A stretch of 48,626 nt of DNA from a virus, in IMG/VR virus record IMGVR_UViG_3300020192_000016, positions 1 to 48,626 of that record. The stretch is one strand, 5' to 3'. Shown piece by piece: positions 37,127 through 48,626 of this stretch. How positions within the stretch are numbered: position 1 is the stretch's first letter; each line of letters begins with the position of its first letter. The position numbers and the translations under genes were made by a program. The notes under the pieces were generated by a model. That model worked only from the letters and a program-made list of their open reading frames with translations, did no database searches and was not told the origin of the DNA.

Positions 37127-38884
37127 TTATACTTCCGATGCCGTCAATAATGTATCAAGTAGAGAGCCTTGTCCAACCTTTGCCGCAGATAAATCTTTGG
37201 CAGCAGAAGCTTGCTGCATATCTTGTTGCGCTTCTAATTGCTGCTGGTTCTGAGCAGATATTTCTTTTTGAATCTCTTCAAACTCATCCTCATCACGAAT
37301 TAAGATAGGGTCTAAAGCTACATAATCCATGTACTGCCTAATCGCCATTTCAGAATTTATAAGCTTAAGGAGAGATGGATCTTGGTTCATTTGAGAAACA
37401 CTACTCGCAAAGTTTAAGGCGCGCTCCATAGAATTCATCATCGATACTTTTGCCGCTTGAGCAATGATCGAAATGTACTCAGGACGAAGCTGCTCACCCT
37501 CAAGCTCTTTAGGCTTCGCAGGCATACGCTTCGCTACCTCTAAAATTATCTGCGCATTTTCAATTATCTTACTATTTAAATCCTGATCCAATTGACCCAA
37601 AGCAGGTGCCAAGGCCGTCATCTTCTCAGAAGCCTTCTCGTCAATTTCCCTCGCAGATACATGGGAAACCGTTTTTTCACTCGAAAGCATCAAAAACAAA
37701 TCCTCAAAGTAACTCTGACGGATTGAATTACTATACTTATCTTGAGTCAAAAGAAGCTCCGACATCCTAGGGTCAACTTCAAACGCAGGCTTAAACCCAG
37801 CTAATGCCCCCTGGTCATCGACATAAGTGATTCCTCCGGCAAGGATGGATGCCTGGTGACGTCTTAGAGATGCATGCCCAACCATCGGAGGTCTAAGCAA
37901 TTTATCCACACCAACTAAACGGGCCTTCTCCATTTCTTGAAACGCCATGATGTCACTCAAAGCAATCTGAGTAGGTCCATCAACGCCATAATTTTCTTCG
38001 GCCTGGACTTCCCATCTAGGAGTTATAATAGGGAAGTAATCAAATCCACTACACTTAATAAATTCACTCTTGCCCGAAGAGTTTTCATTTCTGAAACCCG
38101 ACGATGATTGAGGAGGTAATCCCGCCCCACCAGACTGAATATAAGTGTAGGAAATAAACTTTTTATCGTAAGCGTTTAATGAAAGTTTGATTGGGTTATA
38201 GTTACCATTCGGAATAATAACAGTAGTCAGAACTACAACTTCCAAAAATCTAGATGCCTTATAATGATCTTCTATCCAATTCGGAATGTTAGCGTAATCA
38301 ATATGACCTGTTTTTGTTAGATGCGCATACTGGTCTACAACCTGCTTAACTGACAAAGAAAAATCTCTTGTAAACGTATTTGTATTCCCCTCAGCATCAC
38401 AAGCAAATGCATAAGTCCCAATAGCAAATGGGTAAAACCAAAAGCCATAACGGACATGCGGCAACATTGCAAAAGCGCTATTGGAAAATACTCCGACATC
38501 CTTGTACGCCAAAGGCAGGACTCGGTATAAATTTGAAACTTGAAAGTGATTATTTATAATACCTTCGACCTTAGAAAAATATTTCCTCGCCGATGATGTA
38601 TTAGCTTTAGCTATGTCATTTGTCGTAAGGTTAAACCAAGGTCGTGCTCTTGGTGTTGCACCATTCATCATACCCGAAACAAACGTCCTAAGAGAACGTC
38701 CGGCCTGGTTATCAATGATTCTATGGTCGTTTCTTCTACCAGGTGCCTTGTTAGATAAATTCTCACGCAAACGATTGGGAGCTACAAACGCAGCAGCAAG
38801 CCTCCACTCTGGAAGCATAATGGATAGATCTTGTCGCATTGTGTTTCTGAGGTTATTAACCTCAGAGTAGCTTAATTTTCCCAC
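37127..38884 (-). CDS. Portal (head-tail connector) protein
   Basis: 585-residue protein typical of T7/BPP-1-type connectors. It has an N-terminal RPNRLREN-like PNRLRENL segment, DNQAGRSLRTFVSGMMNGATP, and the YKDVGVFSNSAF region. The C-terminus is a long Gln/Ala-rich helical barrel-like part (about 520-585). It should form the dodecameric DNA gate at the head vertex. The GTG start overlaps the upstream stop (TAGTG), with AAGGT before it. Confidence 0.9.
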   Translation of the reverse strand: MGKLSYSEVNNLRNTMRQDLSIMLPEWRLAAAFVAPNRLRENLSNKAPGRRNDHRIIDNQAGRSLRTFVSGMMNGATPRARPWFNLTTNDIAKANTSSARKYFSKVEGIINNHFQVSNLYRVLPLAYKDVGVFSNSAFAMLPHVRYGFWFYPFAIGTYAFACDAEGNTNTFTRDFSLSVKQVVDQYAHLTKTGHIDYANIPNWIEDHYKASRFLEVVVLTTVIIPNGNYNPIKLSLNAYDKKFISYTYIQSGGAGLPPQSSSGFRNENSSGKSEFIKCSGFDYFPIITPRWEVQAEENYGVDGPTQIALSDIMAFQEMEKARLVGVDKLLRPPMVGHASLRRHQASILAGGITYVDDQGALAGFKPAFEVDPRMSELLLTQDKYSNSIRQSYFEDLFLMLSSEKTVSHVSAREIDEKASEKMTALAPALGQLDQDLNSKIIENAQIILEVAKRMPAKPKELEGEQLRPEYISIIAQAAKVSMMNSMERALNFASSVSQMNQDPSLLKLINSEMAIRQYMDYVALDPILIRDEDEFEEIQKEISAQNQQQLEAQQDMQQASAAKDLSAAKVGQGSLLDTLLTASEV

Positions 38885-39405
38885 TAGTTACCTTGCATAT
38901 ATTTTTGACCACGGCCGGCCTCAATCTCTTTAATTATTTCTTCCATATTTGGCTTCTTGCTTTTTGCTTTAGCAACAGTAGCTTTAGGCTTAGCTTTAGG
39001 CTTAGCAGCAACATTCTTTGCCGTTTGTATAGCATCGCCATTAACTGCAATTTTTGCCTTATTCATTTCTATCTGGTCCATCGCCTGAGATAAACTAGGG
39101 CGAAATTCATTACCCGATTGACCTGGAATTCCCTGAGAAAAAGGAGTCGTCATCTGAGGTTTCAAACCAGGCTCAAAAGGAGTCGTCATCTGAGGTTTCA
39201 AACCAGGCTCAAAAGGAGTCGTCATCTGAGGTTTCAAACCAGGCTCAAAAGGAGTCGTCATCTGAGGTTTCAAACCAGGCTGTAAAGCACTTGGTGCTAC
39301 TTTACTCGGATTCCTCCTAGCATAGTCCATTGCACTCTGTTTTGCCTGGGCCGTAGTAAACCCAGGAAATGCTTTCTTACTTACTTTCTTTGTCGCTTTT
39401 GCCAT
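38884..39405 (-). CDS. Basic repeat-containing virion-associated protein
   Basis: 173-residue protein. A basic N-terminus (Lys/Ala) is followed by four tandem copies of the 12-residue unit PGLKPQMTTPFE (about 43-90), then a helical region and a Lys/Ala/Pro-rich stretch (about 133-152) that could bind DNA. It sits between the glycine-zipper protein and the portal gene, with AAGGGG before ATG. Function unknown; a head-interior or DNA-condensing role is possible. Confidence 0.75.
   Translation of the reverse strand: MAKATKKVSKKAFPGFTTAQAKQSAMDYARRNPSKVAPSALQPGLKPQMTTPFEPGLKPQMTTPFEPGLKPQMTTPFEPGLKPQMTTPFSQGIPGQSGNEFRPSLSQAMDQIEMNKAKIAVNGDAIQTAKNVAAKPKAKPKATVAKAKSKKPNMEEIIKEIEAGRGQKYMQGN
39138..39281 (-). 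repeat. 36-bp tandem repeat, four copies
   Basis: Four head-to-tail 36-bp units are spaced exactly 36 bases (equivalent positions 39146, 39182, 39218 and 39254). They are essentially identical in sequence and encode the PGLKPQMTTPFE unit. Synonymous sites do not differ among units, so the expansion is recent. Confidence 0.9.
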
Positions 39406-39414
39406 ATAATCCCC

Positions 39415-39867
39415 TTAAAAAGTTCCTGAAGTTGATAGATTTGCGCCTATAGCACCTAGAGGGGCATTTGCAGGATTATTCCCGCCCGTACCTGCAGCTT
39501 TACCTCGAAGTCCGGCAACTGCCAAACTCTCCGCTTGTTGTTGCGCCCCAAGCTGTTTATTCACCGAACCTATTCTAGCTGCTTCTGAATCCCTAAGAGC
39601 TTTAATATTTGCCTTTTTCTGATTCCCTTTTTGGGCTTCTGCTGCACCAATAGAACCACCAATAGCAGCACCAGCACTTGCACCAGCTATAACTCCCGCA
39701 GGGTTTAAAGTAATAGTACCTAATGCAGCACCAATAGCCCCACCAATAACAGTACCAGCAACTTGCTTATCGTCATCACTAATGGTTATCTTGGGTATCT
39801 CGGCATTAAATAGCTCTACCTTTTTGCCTGCTTGAAAGGATTCCCGTATTTTGTCAAAAAGCCCCAT
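39415..39867 (-). CDS. Glycine-zipper virion-associated protein
   Basis: 150-residue protein. Residues about 36-75 form a Gly/Ala-rich hydrophobic zipper (GGAIGAALG, GASAGAAIGG), and the C-terminal half is Ala/Gly/Asn-rich and disordered. AGGAG precedes the ATG. The gene lies between terminase and portal. Glycine-zipper proteins can insert in membranes, so a role in genome ejection is plausible but inferred. Confidence 0.7.
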   Translation of the reverse strand: MGLFDKIRESFQAGKKVELFNAEIPKITISDDDKQVAGTVIGGAIGAALGTITLNPAGVIAGASAGAAIGGSIGAAEAQKGNQKKANIKALRDSEAARIGSVNKQLGAQQQAESLAVAGLRGKAAGTGGNNPANAPLGAIGANLSTSGTF

Positions 39868-39878
39868 GAATAGTACTC

Positions 39879-41441
39879 CTATGATCTGTAATTAGGCGAT
39901 GGCCTAAAGTTTTTGTCAAGGTGTGATTGATCCGTCACGTAAGAATTTAGTTGACTTCCCCGATCTTGCCACTCATTCACTACCTCATCATAAGACTTTT
40001 CACGTCCATCAGATGCCTTTCCTTGCACCGAATAGTTACCATAAAAACTTGGCTGCTCTACATCAGCAAAGGTCTGCGCAAGCGCATCTGCTTTATCTGG
40101 TGATCTTCCAAGCCGAGCTTTAATCTGCTCTTTTTCTTCAAGCCTAAAAATTCCACCATGGAAGATTAATTTAGGCATCATGAGTTCCTCAGCAAGCCCA
40201 GGATCGTTCGGGAGGCAACCCCCCTTCTTGACCCAATCTCTAAGTCTAACCCACATCTCGGTTCTTTTGTTAAAGTAACGAGAGTCTTGAGCTTTAGCAT
40301 TATAAATAACTGGAGTCACCTCTAGATGAGGAAATAATGCCAACGAGTCTATTACTGATGAACCATACCCACCCGTATTATCGACGAAGATTCTTTCTAT
40401 TCCTTCTTCCTGTTGCATAAAAGCAATCTTTCCGGCCATCTCTGGGCCATAAACATCGGAACTCATGGCCGTAATAGGGTAAGCTTTAAGCCCCCTACGC
40501 TTCGCCAAAGCACTCCTGTCAATACCACCACGAGCTACATCAACCCCTAGGCGGCATTGACTATTTGAAACCGTACGCTCTTCAATTTGACGGTTCATCG
40601 ATTCATGAATTTCTGGGTCAGATAAAAGAGTATTCGACGCTTGAGCAGGATACCTACCAAATACGTTTACTTGCACCCAAGGATCGTCTTTACCATAGGT
40701 AAGTATTTGCTCCCTTGCCCAGGTAACGGATACTCTCGGCGCTCTCCTAGGATCGTCTGGATCTCCTGAGATATGATATATGCCCCACTTCTGTAATGTT
40801 CGCCCCACCGATGCTCTATATAGGACCCCTTGAGGTCTTTCAGGATTTGCCATCGCTAGAATCTTTGCACACTTAGTATCTGAATCACCCGTCGATAATG
40901 CCGCATCTGCTGTTGCAAAAATTGAATCTGGAATCATCCCTGCTTCGTCCAGTCCGAACATAACGTTATCTGCGTGAAGCCCTGCAAGTGCAGATGCCAT
41001 TTGAGTTTCATCTGCTTGTTTTGGAAATGACCTTGCATCTATGAATGAATAACCTTCATGACCTTTAAGTGTTATTTTCTCCATACCTTCATTTGTTGAT
41101 TTCACCATGAGCTCCGACATTGCCCGCAATCGAAGTAGCTCCGCCCATAAGTTTGATTTTAAATGCTCTTTAGTAATCGAGAGCACTGCGATTTTTGGCT
41201 GGTGGCGTGTCGCAAAGAAGTGAAGTAGTAGTGTGGCCTGAACAAAAGTTTTCCCAGGTCCCTTCGAGGCAATAACACCAATGCGCTGATTCGACACATA
41301 GAGGTCAACCACATCCTCTTGCCAAGCATCGAGGGTTATATCAAATGCATCCTTCATAAATATCTTAGGTCGATGCCGCCATAACTTAAGTACATGTGAA
41401 GGCTGCAACTCTAAAGGTTTGTGAATTATGTTTAATGTCAT
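39879..41441 (-). CDS. terL: Terminase large subunit
   Basis: 520-residue packaging motor. The ATPase carries Walker A SKGPGKT (59-65) and Walker B FGLDEA with Asp165-Glu166. The RNase H-like nuclease carries Asp301 (GVDVARGG), Asp354 (IFVDNTGGYG) and Asp452 (SPDKADAL). All key residues are present. The ATG overlaps the terS stop (ATGA). With the nuclease intact it should cut concatemers; a headful or cohesive-end mode cannot be told from sequence. Confidence 0.95.
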   Translation of the reverse strand: MTLNIIHKPLELQPSHVLKLWRHRPKIFMKDAFDITLDAWQEDVVDLYVSNQRIGVIASKGPGKTFVQATLLLHFFATRHQPKIAVLSITKEHLKSNLWAELLRLRAMSELMVKSTNEGMEKITLKGHEGYSFIDARSFPKQADETQMASALAGLHADNVMFGLDEAGMIPDSIFATADAALSTGDSDTKCAKILAMANPERPQGVLYRASVGRTLQKWGIYHISGDPDDPRRAPRVSVTWAREQILTYGKDDPWVQVNVFGRYPAQASNTLLSDPEIHESMNRQIEERTVSNSQCRLGVDVARGGIDRSALAKRRGLKAYPITAMSSDVYGPEMAGKIAFMQQEEGIERIFVDNTGGYGSSVIDSLALFPHLEVTPVIYNAKAQDSRYFNKRTEMWVRLRDWVKKGGCLPNDPGLAEELMMPKLIFHGGIFRLEEKEQIKARLGRSPDKADALAQTFADVEQPSFYGNYSVQGKASDGREKSYDEVVNEWQDRGSQLNSYVTDQSHLDKNFRPSPNYRS

Positions 41442-42022
41442 ATTAAGTAGTCCATACCCTCAATCGGAGTGTAATGCGGTGTCTCGGCGCAGTCTGATTC
41501 CGAAGGGTTAAGCTCAATAACAGGCACCTGCTTCTTATCCTTAAGCAAATAGTATTCCGCCTCGATATCCTCGATCGTTCTACCGTCATCGATGTAGGAT
41601 TTCTTAATAAGGTCCGTCACAGTTACCTGCGCAGTTATATCTATTTTGTCTATGAAATCAGCTTCAGATTTACCCAGCAACTCCGATGCCTTCAAACGAG
41701 TCGGCAAAGGAATGTTAGGCGACATCTTGATAGGGACATTATTAGAATCAACCTCTTCTTTTTGGTAACGGTCTTCATTCCTCATAATATCTGACCAAAG
41801 CTTCTGACGCTCCTCACGGGATGCGATCGTAGTCTTCAATGCATTGATATAGCGGGAACGCTCCCTAATCGCCTCGACAATCAGAGGCTCATTCATAAGC
41901 CCATTGCCCTTATAGGTGAGGTAATTGTCCGCGCCCGAATACCCCGCAATCCTCATAGCAGAAGGAAGATCCCCATCATACGCCTCCACAAACAACCTAT
42001 GGGCCTTACTAAGCTTATTCAT
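41438..42022 (-). CDS. terS: Terminase small subunit
   Basis: 194-residue protein. An N-terminal helix-turn-helix region (SKAHRLFVEAYDGDLPSAMRIAGY at about 4-27, written here in two overlapping parts) is typical of small terminases that recognise the packaging site. A long helical middle and an acidic C-terminus follow. The ATG at 42022 is preferred over the longer in-frame start, because it overlaps the csrA stop by eight bases and removes 25 residues that read through csrA codons. Confidence 0.85.
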   Translation of the reverse strand: MNKLSKAHRLFVEAYDGDLPSAMRIAGYSGADNYLTYKGNGLMNEPLIVEAIRERSRYINALKTTIASREERQKLWSDIMRNEDRYQKEEVDSNNVPIKMSPNIPLPTRLKASELLGKSEADFIDKIDITAQVTVTDLIKKSYIDDGRTIEDIEAEYYLLKDKKQVPVIELNPSESDCAETPHYTPIEGMDYLI

Positions 42023-42215
42023 AATCGTGGATCGTTTTGTTATGTGTTGTAGGGGAGTAAATCTCGCCCCTTCGAATAATAAAATCCTTCGGCGCATCGA
42101 TTCCTATAGTGCACTTGTTGGAAGCCTGGATCTTAGTCACCGTAATACGAATAACTTTATTGTCAGGGGTAGTTATGTAAATTTCTTCTTGGGGCCTTCG
42201 AGTAAATGCTAGCAT
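42015..42215 (-). CDS. csrA: CsrA-family RNA-binding translational regulator
   Basis: 66-residue protein aligning along its length with CsrA/RsmA. It starts MLAFTRR (bacterial MLxLTRR), has IGIDAPKD (bacterial IGxNAPK) and ends the core with IRRGEIY, keeping the Arg equivalent to RNA-contacting Arg44. CsrA dimers bind GGA motifs in mRNA leaders and block or stabilise translation. It is the first gene of the leftward late block and its end overlaps terS. A double ATG is present; the second is preferred because GAGG is better spaced. Likely role: remodelling host metabolism or timing phage translation. Confidence 0.9.
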   Translation of the reverse strand: MLAFTRRPQEEIYITTPDNKVIRITVTKIQASNKCTIGIDAPKDFIIRRGEIYSPTTHNKTIHDYE

Positions 42216-42246
42216 CATGCCTCAGTGGTTTTAGGTGAAGTAGTTT

Positions 42247-42276
42247 AGTGTAGAGCAGTAAATCTCCATTTGACAA
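42247..42276 (-). promoter_or_regulatory. Candidate sigma-70 promoter for the late block
   Basis: On the minus strand TTGTCA (42276-42271) and TACACT (42252-42247) are separated by 18 bases. This places transcription start about 25 bases before csrA. The -35 matches 5 of 6 and the -10 matches 4 of 6 consensus bases. The triple repeat at 42421-42565 lies upstream and could bind a regulator. Confidence 0.45.
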
Positions 42277-42420
42277 GGTAGTTATGACGTGCGGAGATAT
42301 AACCGTGGTGGACTCCGATGGAATGGCAGTTCAAGCTCAGGACGAGCGCCACCACACCAATTATTTAGGTAATCACACCCTCGACTTTTATATCTTTATT
42401 TCGGTAATTCCTTTTGTGAG

Positions 42421-42565
42421 ATTCTGCCCATTTATTACAATAAGCCTCTTAGGGGACTCTGCCCATTTATTACAATAAGCCTCTTGGAGAACTCCAAAAA
42501 CTTTGTGGGATTCTGCCCAATTATTACAATAAGCCTCTCTGTGAACTTCAAAAACTTTGTGGGGG
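42421..42565. repeat. Three tandem boxes upstream of the late block
   Basis: TTCTGCCCA-TTATTACAATAAGCCTCT-like boxes lie at 42422, 42458 and 42511. The last two are each followed by GAACTNCAAAAACTTTGTGGG, making a 53-bp unit. Box spacing is 36 and 53 bases. They sit upstream of the csrA promoter in DNA with no gene. They look like repeated protein-binding sites controlling late transcription or a nearby origin. Confidence 0.75.
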
Positions 42566-42614
42566 GGTGGGTATACCAGCCAACGCCGGCCGCCAAAAGG
42601 GGGACCCCACCCCC
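42563..42614. promoter_or_regulatory. GC-rich inverted repeat
   Basis: GGGGGTGGG (42563-42571) is perfectly complementary to CCCACCCCC (42606-42614). The 34-base loop contains a CCGGC/GCCGG-like core. The all-GC stem is striking in an AT-richer genome. It could be a replication-fork barrier, an ssDNA initiation structure, or an RNA hairpin shielding the low-complexity arrays from transcription. Confidence 0.55.
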
Positions 42615-42636
42615 TCTGAGCACGAAGTCTTGTTGC

Positions 42637-42925
42637 TCATAGCCTTCACGCCCTGATAGCCTTCACGCCCTGATAGCCTTCACGCCCTGATAGCCTCATA
42701 GCCTCATAGCCTCATAGCCATGCCATGCCGTGCTCATAGGCTCATAGCCATCACGCCCTGATAGCCTGATAGCCTTCACGCCCTGATAGCCTCATAGCCA
42801 TCACGCCCTTCACGTGCTCATAGCCTCATAGCCTCATAGCCATCACGCCCTTCACGCCCTGATAGCCTCATAGCCTCATAGCCATCACGCCCTCATAGCC
42901 TCATAGTCTCATAGCCATGCCGTGG
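42637..42925. repeat. C-rich low-complexity array (left arm)
   Basis: Irregular tandem array of CATAGCCT-type 9-mers and the 17-mer GATAGCCTTCACGCCCT, with interruptions such as CATGCCGTG. The plus strand is strongly C-rich and G-poor. No open frame is credible. Its reverse complement resembles the G-rich array at 43031-43180 (CTATGAGGCT is the complement of AGCCTCATAG), so the two could pair as a large imperfect hairpin. Confidence 0.85.
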
Positions 42926-43030
42926 TGTATGCCTTAAATCGTCACGCTTTGCCGCCTAGGTGCCACTTTCACCCCCATGCCGCTACCCTCATAGCCATCG
43001 ACGGTATAAAGCTCACCTCGGAGAGTTTAG

Positions 43031-43180
43031 AGGCTTAGAGGCTTGGTGGCTGGTGGCTATGAGGCTTGGTGGCTGGTGGCTATGAGGCTTGGTGGCTGGT
43101 GGCTTGGTGGCTTGGTGGCACTGAGGTGCTGAGGTGCTGAGGGGCTTGGTGGCTTGGTGGCTTGGTGGCTTGGAGAGTTA
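43031..43180. repeat. G-rich low-complexity array (right arm)
   Basis: Tandem units of GGCTTGGTG (9 bp) and the 23-mer formed by GGCTTGGTGGCTGG plus TGGCTATGA, followed by GAGGTGCT copies. The plus strand is G-rich and nearly C-free compared with the left arm, so strand skew flips in the about 100 bases between the arrays (42926-43030). No gene is seen in this 560-base stretch. Confidence 0.85.
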
Positions 43181-43200
43181 ACGCACCAAGGCGCAGTTAT

Positions 43201-43419
43201 TCAAATATTAATAAGTAAATCTCTAAAATCGATAAATTCAATATGACCACTTTTTGTATAATTCGCTGAAACTTCATATTCAATATTGCTACTATTATCT
43301 AAATCGCGCTCGTTGATCTCACTTATCAACGCATCAATGCGCCACTCCTTTTTAAGAACAACATTCGCTCGATCAGTTAATATTTTTATATTGCTTTCGT
43401 TTAATTCTAGAACTTTCAT
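43201..43419 (-). CDS. Hypothetical small protein
   Basis: 72-residue protein of unknown function, second gene of a two-gene leftward operon; its ATG lies one base after the upstream stop. A Leu/Ile/Asn/Glu-rich, probably alpha/beta composition. No motif recognised. Located between the G-rich array and a good promoter, so it is likely expressed early. Confidence 0.7.
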   Translation of the reverse strand: MKVLELNESNIKILTDRANVVLKKEWRIDALISEINERDLDNSSNIEYEVSANYTKSGHIEFIDFRDLLINI

Positions 43420-43420
43420 T

Positions 43421-43687
43421 TTAATTCTTTAATTCTTGTATTAAGAGTCTCAAGCAAGCTTCTTTGCCGAATTTTCGAAAAGATTTTTCATTACTATCTC
43501 GACACAACCCCTCGTCGTAACCGCCGTTTTCAGTGATTTTTTTAGTTAACTTTCCTTTTTTTCCTTGATTTAAGCAAAGTTGCAAATAGTATGTTTCTTC
43601 GTAAAATTTAAATTCCATCCAGAAAAATCCGCTGTCAATCTCTTTTTTAATTATTTCTATTTCTAGTTTTATAAATGTATTTTTCAT
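43421..43687 (-). CDS. Hypothetical small protein
   Basis: 88-residue protein of unknown function, first gene of the leftward pair. AAGGAA precedes the ATG. The N-terminal half has alternating hydrophobic and charged residues (beta-strand-like, with WMEFKFYEETYYL), and the C-terminus is a basic helix with three Cys overall. A strong promoter lies 34 bases upstream. Its position in the control region suggests an early regulator or anti-host factor, by inference only. Confidence 0.75.
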   Translation of the reverse strand: MKNTFIKLEIEIIKKEIDSGFFWMEFKFYEETYYLQLCLNQGKKGKLTKKITENGGYDEGLCRDSNEKSFRKFGKEACLRLLIQELKN

Positions 43688-43720
43688 TTTAATTCCTTAA
43701 GTTTGAAGTGCCTATGCGTT

Positions 43721-43749
43721 ACAATACTACAATAACTAAACACTGTCAA
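43721..43749 (-). promoter_or_regulatory. Sigma-70 promoter with duplicated operator-like element
   Basis: On the minus strand TTGACA (43749-43744) and TATTGT (43726-43721) are 17 bases apart. A 13-base element TA(C/T)TGTAGTATTG occurs twice with 26-base spacing, overlapping the -35 and -10 regions, and looks like a pair of repressor sites. It would drive the genes at 43687 and 43419. Confidence 0.7.
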
Positions 43750-44009
43750 TACTACAGTAACTTGCTGTGTTTAGTGGCTTTGAGGGCTATTTGCATTGAG
43801 CATGTTTTCGTCAATATTTGCATTGAGCTTGTCGGCTTTATTTTTGCTTGCGTGGCGCGTTGTGTTTTTCGCGTTTTTTGACTTTTGACCGCCGAATTTA
43901 ACGAGAAAGGGGAGTAAATATTTCTTTTTTTATTCGACATTCGCTCACTAACAAACATGGTATGTACTATTTGTAGCAATCCGGTAACTTTACTTCGAAT
44001 CAATTGCAC

Positions 44010-44100
44010 TTTCTATTATACCTATCTATTACTCTATATATACTTAATAATAATAGTAATAATAAGAGGTTATAGGATAGAAGTATAATAAAGAACAGCT
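44010..44100. other. AT-rich block with inverted repeat
   Basis: About 90 bases almost entirely A and T. An imperfect inverted repeat (TTATAC-C-TATC facing GATAG-AA-GTATAA) flanks runs of TAATAATAG. It resembles a DNA-unwinding element and lies beside repeated ATTCGC sites, the usual makeup of an iteron-type origin. No gene is supported over 43,760-44,398; a basic leftward frame at 43752-44009 has no ribosome-binding site. Confidence 0.5.
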
Positions 44101-44143
44101 CAATAAAAAAGAAGCCACTAACTATGCGTATTTACTACCAAAT

Positions 44144-44306
44144 ATTCGCCGACGAGCGAATACTCAACACACCAGTCTTATACTCAAGCATGTGTATTCG
44201 TTGATGTGTTTTCTAAGCGTATTCGCCCAACAGTTTCGACATATTCAGTACTTGCAAAGGAAATGGGCGAATGAAAAACGTGTTGGGTATTCGCTCGTGG
44301 GCGAAT
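44144..44306. promoter_or_regulatory. Palindromic ATTCGC-N6-GCGAAT sites
   Basis: Two perfect palindromes of form ATTCGC-N6-GCGAAT lie at 44144-44161 and 44289-44306. Between them are half sites at 44221 (ATTCGC) and 44267 (GCGAAT) and a variant ATTCGT at 44196; one more half site lies at 43939. They precede the gene at 44399. They are probable dimer-binding sites for a repressor or replication initiator. Two TTGACA sequences (44342, 44373) follow but have poor -10 partners. Confidence 0.7.
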
Positions 44307-44398
44307 AAATAACGCTAGGTGCCACAAAAAACGCCCATTTATTGACATAGCTGCTGTGAGTCACTAAACCCTTTGACAAGCTCATAATCAAATGATAC

Positions 44399-45250
44399 AT
44401 GAGCATAATGAAGAGTAAAAACAGTTCGGTATCAAGACGTATCTTAAGTGCAATATATCGATTCGCAGGACTATCTCTCGAGCAGTTCGAATCCAAGTAC
44501 GGCAAAATTAAGGTTGGTGAAGCAGAGAAAGAAAGAGTACAGAAAATCGGTTACAGGGTTTATCAATGTCCACGAGTTGCGCAATCTAAAGAAAGAAGAC
44601 AATCAGTCTTTGTCTCAATCGCTATGAGTTCACTCACCTTTGATGAGTATGAAAGTCTCACTAAAATATGCTTCCCCCCGATTTATCACATTAAAAAGTC
44701 GAGGGTGTACGATTTATACTCGGGGTCGGTTCACATGACAATTCTCGAAGCAAGAATTCTTGCAATGACTTCAAAGCTTAACTATGAAACTTTCACAGTT
44801 TTGGATGTGCCAAGACATAAGAACAATGCAATGGCCAGGCTTCCCAATTTTCGCGGGCATTGGCAGTACACAATACCGAGAGGGCGAGGGAATAGAAGCA
44901 TTGCGTATGGTGATAATGCCCGACTTTATAATAGCGTAAAGGATAAGAGCTTATTCGAGATAATACACCTAGGGATGCTTATATCTATGCCGCCCACTAT
45001 TAATCCAGCCCTTGCATTACTACCCACGACCATGCCTATGATTGAGCTTTCCGAATCTGAGCTACTCCAGCGTCGACTAGCGTTTTGGGAAGCACGTAAA
45101 GAGCTTATATCGCTCTTTGAAGCAACAATCAGGCAGCGCACGGATATAATCGTCGTCGATGATGATATGTATGATGATTTAGACTTCGACGCTTTAGACT
45201 TTTATGATCTTGGCGGCATTGACCCCGGTGATATTGATTCTCTAGTATAA
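44399..45250 (+). CDS. Hypothetical protein with highly acidic tail
   Basis: 283-residue protein of unknown function. A basic N-terminal region of about 75 residues (many Lys, Arg) contains an AGLSLEQFESKYG segment that could be part of a DNA-binding helix-turn-helix. A central domain has Trp, Arg and His (FRGHWQYTIPRGRGNRSIAYG), and the C-terminal 35 residues are mostly Asp. Basic DNA-binding head plus acidic tail beside palindromic sites suggests a regulator or replication initiator; that is inference. The start is uncertain: another ATG is nine bases downstream and neither has a good ribosome-binding site. Confidence 0.75.
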   Translation: MSIMKSKNSSVSRRILSAIYRFAGLSLEQFESKYGKIKVGEAEKERVQKIGYRVYQCPRVAQSKERRQSVFVSIAMSSLTFDEYESLTKICFPPIYHIKKSRVYDLYSGSVHMTILEARILAMTSKLNYETFTVLDVPRHKNNAMARLPNFRGHWQYTIPRGRGNRSIAYGDNARLYNSVKDKSLFEIIHLGMLISMPPTINPALALLPTTMPMIELSESELLQRRLAFWEARKELISLFEATIRQRTDIIVVDDDMYDDLDFDALDFYDLGGIDPGDIDSLV

Positions 45251-45280
45251 CATCGAAGTTGTATTAATTTCAAAACGGCA

Positions 45281-45309
45281 TTGACACCACAAGACGACTA
45301 AAGTATAAC
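45281..45309 (+). promoter_or_regulatory. Strong sigma-70 promoter
   Basis: TTGACA (45281-45286) and TATAAC (45304-45309) have an ideal 17-base spacer. Transcription would start about 30 bases before the pentapeptide-repeat operon's first ATG. It is the best consensus promoter in the window and marks an early rightward unit. Confidence 0.8.
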
Positions 45310-45345
45310 GCCTCTAGATTTTTAAACTTTGAGGGGAACTAAATC

Positions 45346-46299
45346 ATGAAAAAAGAAGAATTAAAACTAATACTAGATAACCACGCACTTTGGGTGTCAA
45401 ACAATTCGAAGGGCATGAAAGCTGATTTAACTCATGCTGATTTAACTCAAGCTGATTTATCAAATGCTAATTTAAGTCGCGCTGATTTATCAAATGCTAA
45501 TTTATATAATGCTGATTTATCAAATGCTAATTTATATAATGCTGATTTATCAAATGCTAATTTACGTCATGCTGATTTATCAAATGCTGATTTATCAAAT
45601 GCTGATTTATCAAATGCTAATTTAACTCATGCTAATTTACGTCATGCTGATTTATCAAATGCTAATTTACGTCATGCTGATTTATCAAATGCTGATTTAA
45701 CTCATGCTAATTTACGTCATGCTGATTTAACTCATGCTAATTTACGTCATGCTGATTTATCAAATGCTGATTTACGTGATGCTGATTTATCAAATGCTGA
45801 TTTATCAAATGCTGATTTAACTCATGCTAATTTAAGTCGCGCTGATTTATCAAAAGCTGATTTATCAAATGCTGATTTATATGAAGCTGATTTCACTTCG
45901 ACGCTCTTGAGACTAAGTAACTTACGATTTGCGAATAACTTACTTACAATAAAAAGTTTACCGGCCGCAAAAAGAGAGTTGTTTGAAAAGCTTGGCGCAT
46001 TTAAAAATGAAGCTCAAGGACTATATAAAGCAGCTGTTGGCGGAAAGATCGACGGTTCAGCATATGAGGGCGACTGTGCTTGTTTTGTTGGCACTATTGC
46101 AAACTTGTTGGATCAAAATTACAAAGAGCTAGAAAACTTGAAACATGATGATGAGTCACTCATTGAGCGTCTTTTTTCAGCTGTTACTACGGGCGATACA
46201 CCAACGAATAACCCAATATCGAAGATTGTACAAGATTGGTTGATTGAATTTATGGGCATATACGACATCGAAGTTCCAACTTTAAATTGGAGTAAATAG
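45346..46299 (+). CDS. Pentapeptide-repeat protein with C-terminal domain
   Basis: 317-residue protein. After a short head (EELKLILDNHALWV, common in phage members), residues about 25-185 are some 32 pentapeptides of the A(D/N)LxN type, predicted to form a right-handed square beta-helix. The last about 120 residues are a different domain with GKIDGSAYEGDCACFVGTIA, seen in other pentapeptide proteins. Some family members (Qnr, MfpA) mimic DNA and bind gyrase; whether this one does is unknown. GAGGGG precedes the ATG. Nearly every unit uses the same codons. Confidence 0.9.
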   Translation: MKKEELKLILDNHALWVSNNSKGMKADLTHADLTQADLSNANLSRADLSNANLYNADLSNANLYNADLSNANLRHADLSNADLSNADLSNANLTHANLRHADLSNANLRHADLSNADLTHANLRHADLTHANLRHADLSNADLRDADLSNADLSNADLTHANLSRADLSKADLSNADLYEADFTSTLLRLSNLRFANNLLTIKSLPAAKRELFEKLGAFKNEAQGLYKAAVGGKIDGSAYEGDCACFVGTIANLLDQNYKELENLKHDDESLIERLFSAVTTGDTPTNNPISKIVQDWLIEFMGIYDIEVPTLNWSK

Positions 46300-46301
46300 C
46301 C

Positions 46302-46829
46302 ATGACTAAAGAAGAATTAAAAAAGATCTTGGATAGCCATAAGCTCTGGCTATCCGACGGCATGAAGGGCAAGAAAGCTGATTTATCATATGCTAATTTA
46401 CATAATGCTGATTTACATAATGCTAATTTACGTGATGCTGATTTACATAATGCTAATTTACGTGATGCTGATTTAAGTCGAGCTAATTTACACTTCGCTA
46501 ATTTACGCTACGCTGATTTAAGTTTCGCTGATTTACGTTTCGCTGATTTACGTTTAGCTGATTTACATAATGCTAATTTACGTGATGCTGATTTAAGTCG
46601 AGCTAATTTACGCTACGCTAATTTACGTCATGCTGATTTATCAAATGCTGATTTAACTCATGCTGATTTAACTCATGCTGATTTATCAAATGCTAATTTA
46701 CGTCATGCTGATTTATCAAATGCTAATTTACGTGAATCTGATTTACGTGCCACGAATTTACTTCACGTTAATTTACATGAAGTTAAAAGGTCACTAGATG
46801 ATACGGAAATGAATGAAGGTAGGAACTAA
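46302..46829 (+). CDS. Pentapeptide-repeat protein
   Basis: 175-residue protein, second of three tandem pentapeptide genes, starting two bases after the first gene. It has the same head (EELKKILDSHKLWLSDG) and about 25 pentapeptides, then a short tail (ATNLLHVNLHEVKRSLDD). The head and the last 99 bases are nearly identical to the third gene, marking a recent duplication with only the repeat interior diverging. There is no C-terminal domain as in the first gene. Confidence 0.9.
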   Translation: MTKEELKKILDSHKLWLSDGMKGKKADLSYANLHNADLHNANLRDADLHNANLRDADLSRANLHFANLRYADLSFADLRFADLRLADLHNANLRDADLSRANLRYANLRHADLSNADLTHADLTHADLSNANLRHADLSNANLRESDLRATNLLHVNLHEVKRSLDDTEMNEGRN

Positions 46830-46832
46830 GTC

Positions 46833-47270
46833 ATGAAAAAAGAAGAATTAAAAAAGATCTTGGATAGCCATAAGCTCTGGCTATCCGACGGCATGAAGGG
46901 CAAGAAAGCTGATTTATCATATGCTAATTTGAGTAACGCTGATTTGAGTAACGCTGATTTGAGTCATGTTAATTTATATGAAGCTAATTTACGTGAAGCT
47001 AATTTACGTGATGCTAATTTATATGATGCTGATTTACGTGAAGCTGATTTACGTTACGCTGATTTACGTTACGCGGATTTATCATACGCTGATTTACGTG
47101 AAGCTGATTTACGTCACGCTAATTTACGTTACGCTGATTTATCATACGCTAATTTAACTTACGCTGATTTACGTGAATCTGATTTACGTGCCACGAATTT
47201 ACTTCACGCTAATTTACATGAAGTTAAAAGGTCACTAGATGATACGGAAACGAATGAAGGTAGGAACTAA
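46833..47270 (+). CDS. Pentapeptide-repeat protein
   Basis: 145-residue paralogue of the preceding gene, with about 20 pentapeptides. The head is the same as in the second gene, and the tail differs by only two bases in 99. The interior units use more Tyr, Glu and Arg (LREAD, LRYAD) than the first gene. Its stop overlaps the ATG of the coiled-coil gene (TAATG). The variable interior between constant ends suggests shuffling of repeat units between copies. Confidence 0.9.
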   Translation: MKKEELKKILDSHKLWLSDGMKGKKADLSYANLSNADLSNADLSHVNLYEANLREANLRDANLYDADLREADLRYADLRYADLSYADLREADLRHANLRYADLSYANLTYADLRESDLRATNLLHANLHEVKRSLDDTETNEGRN

Positions 47271-47632
47271 TGAAAATTGAAAATGAAATTAAGAAGATTG
47301 AAAACAAACTTAAAGCTATTAAAGATGCTGTGTCATTAGAAGCATACTCAATTGCGCCCTTCATCGAAGGTATTGAGGAAAACTTAGGTAGCATAATCGA
47401 ATTGTTTGAGTCTAAAGAAGATGAAATTGAAGAGTTACAAAGTGAAGTCAAAGAGCTTGAATGTCATATTGAAGAAGTAAGTGATGAGGCAGAAGAAGTT
47501 TTCCAATTGCTTAAATCGTTATGTAATTCGTACATGCTTTCTAATTCACAGTACATGCAAGATGAGATTTTAAACCTACTCGAATATAACTTTGGTTTAA
47601 AGTTAATTGTAGCACCAGCACATAACCCATAA
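47270..47632 (+). CDS. Acidic coiled-coil protein
   Basis: 120-residue acidic protein. Residues about 1-20 and 45-85 have Glu/Lys/Leu/Ile heptads of a coiled coil. The rest is helical. The ATG overlaps the stop of the third pentapeptide gene, so it is probably part of that operon and co-translated. Function unknown; a partner of the pentapeptide proteins is possible. Confidence 0.75.
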   Translation: MKIENEIKKIENKLKAIKDAVSLEAYSIAPFIEGIEENLGSIIELFESKEDEIEELQSEVKELECHIEEVSDEAEEVFQLLKSLCNSYMLSNSQYMQDEILNLLEYNFGLKLIVAPAHNP

Positions 47633-47647
47633 ATAATAAACAATAAA

Positions 47648-47682
47648 CGCATAAATTTATATGCGCTACTTAGGAGAGATAT
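47648..47682 (+). promoter_or_regulatory. Hairpin leader, copy 1
   Basis: CGCATA-AATTTA-TATGCG forms a 6-bp hairpin (47648-47665), followed by the TTAGGAGAGATAT ribosome-binding region and ATG at 47683. It is preceded by CAATAAA units. A nearly identical leader precedes the gene at 48157, so the two genes are probably regulated alike at translation. Confidence 0.7.
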
Positions 47683-48090
47683 ATGGCCTTAGAAACAATG
47701 AAAAATGTTACACAAATTAATGGCGAAAAAATTGTTTGTATGGATGACTTAAGAATACAATTTCCCGAGAAATTTAATGAATTGGGTTCTATGGACTATA
47801 AGTGGTTTGAAAAAGAAATTAGGCCACATAACTTTATTTATGTCCGCCATGATGTTAATTCCCTTTCATTTACAATCCAAAACGGGCCTATAAAAGAAGT
47901 TGGGAAGAACGGTTGTCAAGTTGAAGATGTCATAGCGGTAGCTAAACACATTATAGAGCAGTTAAATGAAAAGTTTCCATGCAGAGAAAACTCAATGATT
48001 ATTACAAAGCTTGATGAGGCCGTAATGTGGTCAAAGAAAAGGACACTAGATAGACAAAATAGGTCTTTTGAAGGATTAATTACGAACTAG
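47683..48090 (+). CDS. Acb2/Tad1-like cyclic-nucleotide sponge (anti-CBASS/anti-Thoeris candidate)
   Basis: 135-residue protein. From residue 64 to the end it matches by eye the phage proteins sharing the Acb2/Tad1 hairpin domain: IQNGPIKEVGKNGC (65-78), FPCRENS (98-104), TKLDEAVMW (108-116) and KRTLDRQNRSFEG (119-131). Known members bind signalling nucleotides made by CBASS or Thoeris immunity and so block defence. The first 60 residues (MDDLRIQFPEKFNELGSMDY region) are an extra N-terminal part not recognised. It lies next to other likely anti-host genes. The family is fairly sure; the ligand is unknown. Confidence 0.75.
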   Translation: MALETMKNVTQINGEKIVCMDDLRIQFPEKFNELGSMDYKWFEKEIRPHNFIYVRHDVNSLSFTIQNGPIKEVGKNGCQVEDVIAVAKHIIEQLNEKFPCRENSMIITKLDEAVMWSKKRTLDRQNRSFEGLITN

Positions 48091-48115
48091 AAACAATAAA
48101 CAATAAACAATAAAC

Positions 48116-48156
48116 AATTAGCGCATAAATTTATATGCGCTAATTAGGAGAGATAT
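48116..48156 (+). promoter_or_regulatory. Hairpin leader, copy 2
   Basis: AATTAGCGCATA (48116-48127) pairs perfectly with TATGCGCTAATT (48134-48145) across the loop AATTTA, giving a 12-bp stem. It is followed directly by AGGAGAGATAT and ATG at 48157. Four CAATAAA-type heptamers come just before. The core and ribosome-binding site equal copy 1. It may be a weak terminator or a translational control element; a CsrA site at AGGA is possible. Confidence 0.75.
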
Positions 48157-48492
48157 ATGATTTTAGAAACCCTTACTTATGGACAAATTAAAGAAATTCA
48201 AAAGCTATTCAAGCAAGAATCTTCGGTGAAAGAAACACCTTTTGAAATTGGGAAAAACTATTTGATTCGTACTGTGACAATGACACATTCGGGGAAAGTA
48301 AAAGCTATCATCGGAGACTTCCTAGTCCTCACAAGTGCCGCTTGGATTGCGGATACTGGTAGGTTTTCAGAAGCACTTGTTGACCAAAATAAATTCAATG
48401 AGGTTGAACCTTTTCTAAACGAAGTATTTGTAAATATCACTACGATTATCGACGCCACACAAATTGAGAAGCTTATCACATCGATGAAGTAG
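48157..48492 (+). CDS. Hypothetical protein, last rightward early gene
   Basis: 111-residue beta-rich protein. The central part (GKNYLIRTVTM, then DFLVLTSAAWIADTGRFSEAL and FNEVEPF) resembles a family of small uncharacterised proteins seen in phages and bacterial genomes; no function is known to me. It has the same hairpin leader and strong AGGAGAG site as the Acb2/Tad1-like gene, so the two are probably expressed together. It is the last gene before the non-coding junction region. Confidence 0.75.
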   Translation: MILETLTYGQIKEIQKLFKQESSVKETPFEIGKNYLIRTVTMTHSGKVKAIIGDFLVLTSAAWIADTGRFSEALVDQNKFNEVEPFLNEVFVNITTIIDATQIEKLITSMK

Positions 48493-48499
48493 TAATTTA

Positions 48500-48626
48500 T
48501 GATTGCAATAATTAAAGCTGGGTTTGCTAATTCACGGTCACGGTCATGTTCAGGGTCATGTTCACATTCATGGTCACGTTCACGTTCACGTTCACGAAGC
48601 AGATATTTATGATTGCAATAATTAAA
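48500..48626. repeat. Terminal direct repeat, right copy (circular junction)
   Basis: Exact copy of bases 1-127. Position 48493 to the end, continued at 1-595, forms one uninterrupted non-coding region after circularisation. No gene is seen between the stop of the gene ending at 48492 and the start at 596. Confidence 0.9.

Follow-up and report, generated by a model that had tools for sequence, protein, structure and literature searches.

A divergent CsrA homologue overlapping the terminase small subunit gene of an uncultured phage

Phage CsrA homologues and the genome analyzed

Homologues of CsrA/RsmA occur in phages. Campa et al. 2021 surveyed the phage homologues and proposed an anti-CRISPR use for them (PMC8450108), and 30 csrA-carrying phages were listed by Sobrero and Valverde 2020 (PMC7366521). 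In Burkholderia phage JC1 the csrA gene stands ahead of the capsid gene (PMC9144972), and its position in CSP3 is similar (PMC10269572). Phage CsrAs are known mostly by sequence; one has been shown to affect plaque size, namely the homologue of phage PTXU04, the knock-down of which led to smaller plaques (PMC11879866).

A tblastn search with E. coli CsrA matched 85 phage-collection records, some of them bacterial. The record “Acinetobacter phage MD-2021a” (L057, CAKLQH020000034.1) was rejected as a csrA phage: its csrA lies among chromosomal alaS, thrA, and other genes, and it looks like a mislabelled bacterial contig. The neighbourhoods of csrA were viewed in a sample of 13 annotated phage records. 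DC1, Parlo, and Skulduggery have it ahead of the capsid gene, and Itty13 has it ahead of the matching gene, annotated as hypothetical; in the other nine it stands elsewhere, and it overlaps an annotated terminase small subunit gene (terS) in none of the 13. A description of such an overlap was likewise not found in a literature search that reached few subscription papers and the accessible parts of others.

The DNA analyzed here (the window) is the whole IMG/VR record IMGVR_UViG_3300020192_000016 of 48,626 bases, from an uncultured bacterial virus. It carries a direct terminal repeat of 127 bases and is therefore probably a complete genome that was assembled as a circle. Its packaging and structural genes lie on the minus strand and run leftward from about 42.2 to 11.9 kb, and the small and replication genes run mainly rightward. 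Pfam matches are GP7 (PF20911, 2e-106) for the major capsid protein and PF12236 (6.7e-89) for the connector, a pair that we take to indicate an epsilon15/T7-like short-tailed phage. Neither tRNA genes nor known RNA families at gathering scores were detected in the window. Searches of phage records with positions 38000-48626 and with 9 kb of the relative G009 returned no near DNA match, and a host search by alignment of the large terminase subunit gene (terL) against genome_contigs gave nine loci from unrelated taxa, the best at 31% identity. Two repeat-bearing regions were also observed. Three tandem genes at 45346-47270 (plus strand) encode pentapeptide-repeat proteins, as judged by 15-nt DNA repeats and, for the third gene only, by Pfam, and a 36-nt repeat in four perfect copies at 39139-39281 codes for PGLKPQMTTPFE units in a 173-aa protein adjoining the connector gene.

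The csrA gene and its overlap with terS

The csrA homologue occupies 42015..42215 on the minus strand, with its stop codon at 42015-42017 and an ATG at 42215, which gives 66 amino acids plus the stop; an alternative in-frame ATG at 42218 would give 67. The sequence-only reading of this DNA had given no strand, and the plus-strand reading at the same coordinates is not CsrA. The protein scores 50.3 bits against the Pfam CsrA profile (PF02599, cut-off 27, E 2.4e-13), and its best PHROG is 9500, “CsrA-like regulator” (3.9e-9, covering residues 2-65 in the 67-aa form). No other part of the record matches CsrA. At the sequence level, solved CsrA/RsmA structures match it weakly (best 0.0048). It scored 29.9 bits with TIGR00202 (cut-off 70.1) and 39.1 bits with NF002469 (cut-off 73), below both NCBIfam csrA equivalog cut-offs. 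The predicted structure has the order E-E-E-E-E-H at a mean pLDDT of 75.3, falling under 50 in the C-terminal helix region, and this order of five strands plus a C-terminal helix agrees with the CsrA superfamily. A Foldseek search of the monomer model against the PDB gave no matches at E <= 0.001, possibly because a monomer was modelled while CsrA is a strand-swapped dimer. By profile and residues, the protein is best classed as a divergent member of the CsrA superfamily that falls outside the equivalog cut-offs.

Residues were compared in an alignment of 19 rows, comprising the window, 13 phage loci, three sequences of the same clade, E. coli CsrA, and the mislabelled bacterial contig. A CsrA profile run on 21 loci matched 14; DC1 (L141) and Skulduggery (L155) were unmatched and so fall outside the 19 rows. 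The RNA-contact set is presumed, partly from general knowledge, to be L4, R6, R7, V42, and R44 of strands beta1 and beta5. The equivalents of R6, R7, and R44 are identical in the window protein, V42 is represented by Ile, and the Phe in place of L4 counts as the sole departure among these residues. The R6 residue occurs in 18 of the 19 rows; R44 is likewise conserved as Arg in 18 rows, with Lys in Parlo. The claim of a full-length CsrA with its RNA-contacting Arg stands. Position 4 of the window protein is Phe, as had been claimed; Phe occurs in no other row, 17 of the 19 having Leu and one Ile. The further suggestion that Phe4 alters target preference is a guess, and the comparison does not favour it: the other three sequences of the clade have Leu at this position, and in the RsmN-RNA structure, where the Leu4 and Arg44 equivalents are RNA contacts, Leu4 packs against a purine base (PMC3791407), a role that Phe4 could serve as well. 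In the same source, loss of the Arg44 equivalent lowers RNA binding by RsmN more than 1,000-fold (PMC3791407). The clade also shares a beta1-beta2 turn that is longer by four residues (TTPDNK, TLPNNE, TTPNGD, and TLPNNE), and the Glu45 position is Gly in the window protein.

Downstream of csrA, the minus strand carries terS (41438..42022, 194 aa; PHROG 51 “terminase small subunit”, 3.2e-11) and terL (39879..41441, 520 aa; PHROG 2, 1e-24; 47 relatives in viral_contigs). The end of csrA and the start of terS overlap by 8 nt (ATGAATAA), the terS start at 42022 being backed by alignment to relatives, and the end of terS overlaps terL by 4 nt. Over the 25 nt that precede the ATG of terS in the window, no Shine-Dalgarno-like sequence was detected. 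Translation of terS therefore probably depends on ribosomes finishing csrA, and less so in the relatives: a Shine-Dalgarno sequence for terS lies inside csrA in L007 (AGAGGAA) and L009 (AAGGAGG), a weak purine stretch precedes terS in G005, and the csrA-less L002 has a purine-rich ribosome site, GGGGA, ahead of terS. Of the earlier claim that csrA overlaps the packaging genes and is coupled to them, the overlap is thus observed, and the coupling is deduced from it together with the lack of a Shine-Dalgarno sequence before terS.

Distribution of csrA and the region upstream

The terL relatives collected amounted to 47 loci, and the records of 20 of these were searched with the Pfam CsrA profile. 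Five of the 20 matched, and several of the 15 without a match are fragments that begin within or after terS. Searching by terS alignment yielded 70 loci. In a profile search of the collected loci, five uncultured contigs other than the window (G005, L007, L009, L003, and L019) had csrA directly ahead of terS. L003 does not differ from L009 over 900 bases, and L019 encodes the same csrA protein, which leaves four distinct csrA sequences with the window included. The overlap with terS measures 8 nt in the window, 23 nt in G005, and 26 nt in both L007 and L009. Among loci with terS and upstream sequence present, no csrA precedes terS in L002, L077, L078/L079, L081, L082/L083 (about 200 nt of upstream sequence only in L082), L010, L012, L013, L014/L018, or L016/L023. 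As the close relatives L002 and L078 have no csrA at the very site where the others carry it, csrA is best regarded as an accessory gene whose site is fixed. A separate feature was seen in terL of L016, L017, and L023: close to the Walker A motif, it carries a long insertion ending in HNT that looks like an intein.

A terL tree with 13 rows places the four csrA-carrying rows within a six-row clade (support 80/96) that also includes the csrA-less L002 and L078. Three changes of state are needed on this tree, either a single gain with two losses or else separate gains, and csrA labels cluster no better than in many shuffles, 165 of 500 scoring as low. A single gain is favoured by the common site and the common insertion, and csrA would then have been inserted once just ahead of terS in the ancestor of the clade and afterwards lost in some branches. 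The beta1-beta2 insertion is present also in L090, a more distant phage contig with a CsrA gene at 462-713 (Pfam 1.5e-7) that lies 765 nt ahead of terS (1479), with terL at 2210.

The csrA gene diverges faster than its neighbours. Protein identities for distant pairs and for L007 vs L009 were 26-38 and 59% in CsrA, 58-67 and 73% in TerS, and 70-84 and 91% in TerL, respectively. Between L007 and L009, dN of csrA was 0.35 and dS 1.69, the latter near saturation and the ratio therefore rough; with dN well below dS, csrA is under purifying selection between these two despite its fast evolution.

The sequence-only reading had placed csrA first after a late promoter, which the region itself does not bear out. 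Sigma-70-like sites number 13 on both strands of 41400-44500 vs 7.1 +/- 2.9 expected, and none stands out; a scan of the same stretch gave no terminator-like site. Two further minus-strand open reading frames without Pfam matches (43201-43419 and 43421-43687) lie upstream, separated from csrA by about 1 kb of repeats. Three copies of AGAGGCTTATTGTAATAAWTGGGCAGA occur on the minus strand at 42423..42538, 217-315 nt upstream of csrA (three exact matches, 0 expected in shuffles). Their core, ATTGYAATAA, matches eight times in the genome vs 0.56 expected, two of the eight being terminal-repeat duplicates. All matches fall in two non-coding gaps, one before csrA (42423-42538) and one flanked by rightward genes across the joint of the record (1-560 and 48498-48621), between a gene end at 48492 and an open reading frame start at 596. 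In both gaps the core is oriented along the genes downstream, and the array ahead of csrA may serve as an operator, a promoter, or a binding array for TerS. A second non-coding element, CCCCCTTTT-N17-19-GTATACCCACC, occurs once in the window at 42566..42603 (minus strand). It was aligned in seven rows and is conserved in relatives with and without csrA, with looser forms in L078, L083, and L013; it is possibly a packaging or end site. Imperfect repeats of the CCTCATAG / GGCTTGGT type extend over about 0.5 kb at 42639-43173, between csrA and the small upstream open reading frames.

Targets and possible roles

The sequence-only reading had also proposed that CsrA could gate phage mRNAs, and suggested scanning phage leaders for ANGGA. 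GGA and ANGGA were counted at -70..-19, -18..-1, and -150..-71 and compared with dinucleotide shuffles, in three genomes with csrA (44, 43, and 36 called genes in the window, G005, and G007, respectively) and three without (52, 53, and 46 in G009, G015, and G020). No excess tracked csrA in the leaders of these six genomes, and none of the three sets with csrA rose clearly above the shuffles, in a test of low power, since each genome gave 36-53 genes, gene calling was crude, and the motifs overlap with Shine-Dalgarno sequences. The largest excess, 15 ANGGA vs 9.0 +/- 2.6, fell in the Shine-Dalgarno zone of the csrA-less G015. The csrA leaders themselves share no common GGA site, and gating of phage messages thus gains no backing from the scan. 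Two specific candidates were rejected. One was autoregulation by GGA in the leader of csrA: the four leaders have no such site in common, and in the window the nearest GGA, about 50 nt upstream of csrA, is paired in the predicted fold; the four leaders are no more stably folded than shuffles (z between -0.36 and 1.20). A CsrB-like sponge RNA at the GGA-dense stretch 581-830 was discarded since that stretch is a 75-aa open reading frame. The approximately 1-kb stretch upstream of csrA holds four GGA on the minus strand.

Our preferred reading, to which we give an even chance, is that the window CsrA is an accessory RNA-binding regulator, directed mainly at the host and co-expressed with the packaging genes. 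It would be a small protein of the GGA-binding kind, probably dimeric, and its gene is read in the same direction as terS and terL. Its main targets would most likely be host mRNAs of metabolism, motility, or defence rather than phage messages, with the host’s own Csr targets as obvious candidates. Host rather than phage targets are suggested by the lack of GGA enrichment in phage leaders, by the lack of a sponge-like GGA cluster, by the divergence of csrA faster than terS and terL, and by the quite different csrA operons of other phages. Precedents are the PTXU04 knock-down (PMC11879866) and the repression of CRISPR-Cas by host RsmA (PMC8450108). The rewiring of host metabolism put forward in the sequence-only reading is possible. 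Against the host-target reading, the fixed place before the packaging genes would be explained no less well by a local phage role, and the low power of the GGA test and the missed equivalog cut-offs also count against it.

Such a local role is the main rival, which we consider possible but rather unlikely: CsrA would bind its own leader, set the amount of TerS through the overlap, and time the start of packaging. The terS overlap in all four distinct csrA sequences, the want of a Shine-Dalgarno sequence before terS in the window, the four other phages in which csrA immediately precedes the capsid gene position, and a GGA within the csrA Shine-Dalgarno of L007 and L009 speak for it. However, the four leaders have no GGA site in common and that of the window is paired, csrA-less relatives such as L002 have their own ribosome site before terS, and terS of L007 and L009 has a Shine-Dalgarno inside csrA. 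A stricter form, which we hold to be unlikely, would hard-wire CsrA to a packaging switch, completion of CsrA licensing TerS by re-initiation and CsrA then repressing its own leader or host messages; if true, one RNA-binding protein would time the change from replication to packaging.

It is more doubtful that CsrA is packaged in the virion, delivered at infection, and acts on host RNA before phage gene expression. The gene lies beside virion genes, and one CsrA peptide was recovered from purified JC1 virions, but this single peptide was termed unconfirmed by its authors (PMC9144972), and a location by terS does not demand packaging. We give equally little credence to a competitor of host CsrA, in which a weak or altered protein would mix with host subunits or occupy sites without repressing. 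The low identity to E. coli CsrA, the unique Phe4, the beta1-beta2 insertion, and the Gly for Glu45 could be read in this way, but the RNA-contact Arg and hydrophobic positions are retained and Phe4 is absent from the relatives. A non-functional relic or chance open reading frame, to which fast divergence and absence from some relatives might point, is very improbable given the Pfam match, the site and residues conserved in divergent relatives, and the dN well below dS. The presence or absence of csrA at one terS-adjoining site within the clade yields matched phages with and without the gene, and thereby a clean comparison for phage CsrA function.

Compared with known systems, the window protein shares with E. 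coli CsrA the PF02599 profile and the equivalents of L2, R6, R7, P37, R44, E46, and I47, but is only 31% identical to it in the alignment and differs in Phe4, the four extra beta1-beta2 residues, and the missed equivalog cut-offs. Burkholderia phage DC1, Serratia phage Parlo, and Pseudomonas phages Skulduggery and Itty13 resemble the window in carrying csrA within the virion/packaging block on the same strand. In these phages, however, csrA is flanked by a portal-side gene and the capsid position and does not overlap terS, and the best PHROG of the DC1 protein is 8397 instead of 9500. The gap from csrA to the capsid position is about 95 to 190 nt in DC1 (L141), Parlo (L154), Skulduggery (L155), and Itty13 (L171), and might be a regulated leader. 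Gp28 of Escherichia phage PTXU04 is likewise a phage CsrA homologue (PHROGs 5527 and 9500), but its gene closes a leftward operon, next to a holin gene. Vibrio phages D279, D65, and 1.232.O also encode a CsrA, annotated as CsrA-like or global regulator; these are about 65-67% identical to E. coli CsrA and, unlike the window gene, sit within a small-gene operon, with terS annotated about 4-5 kb from csrA in D65 and 1.232.O. Viral copies of CsrA are thus already known, and what is new here is a divergent lineage at a terS-overlapping position that is conserved in its clade.
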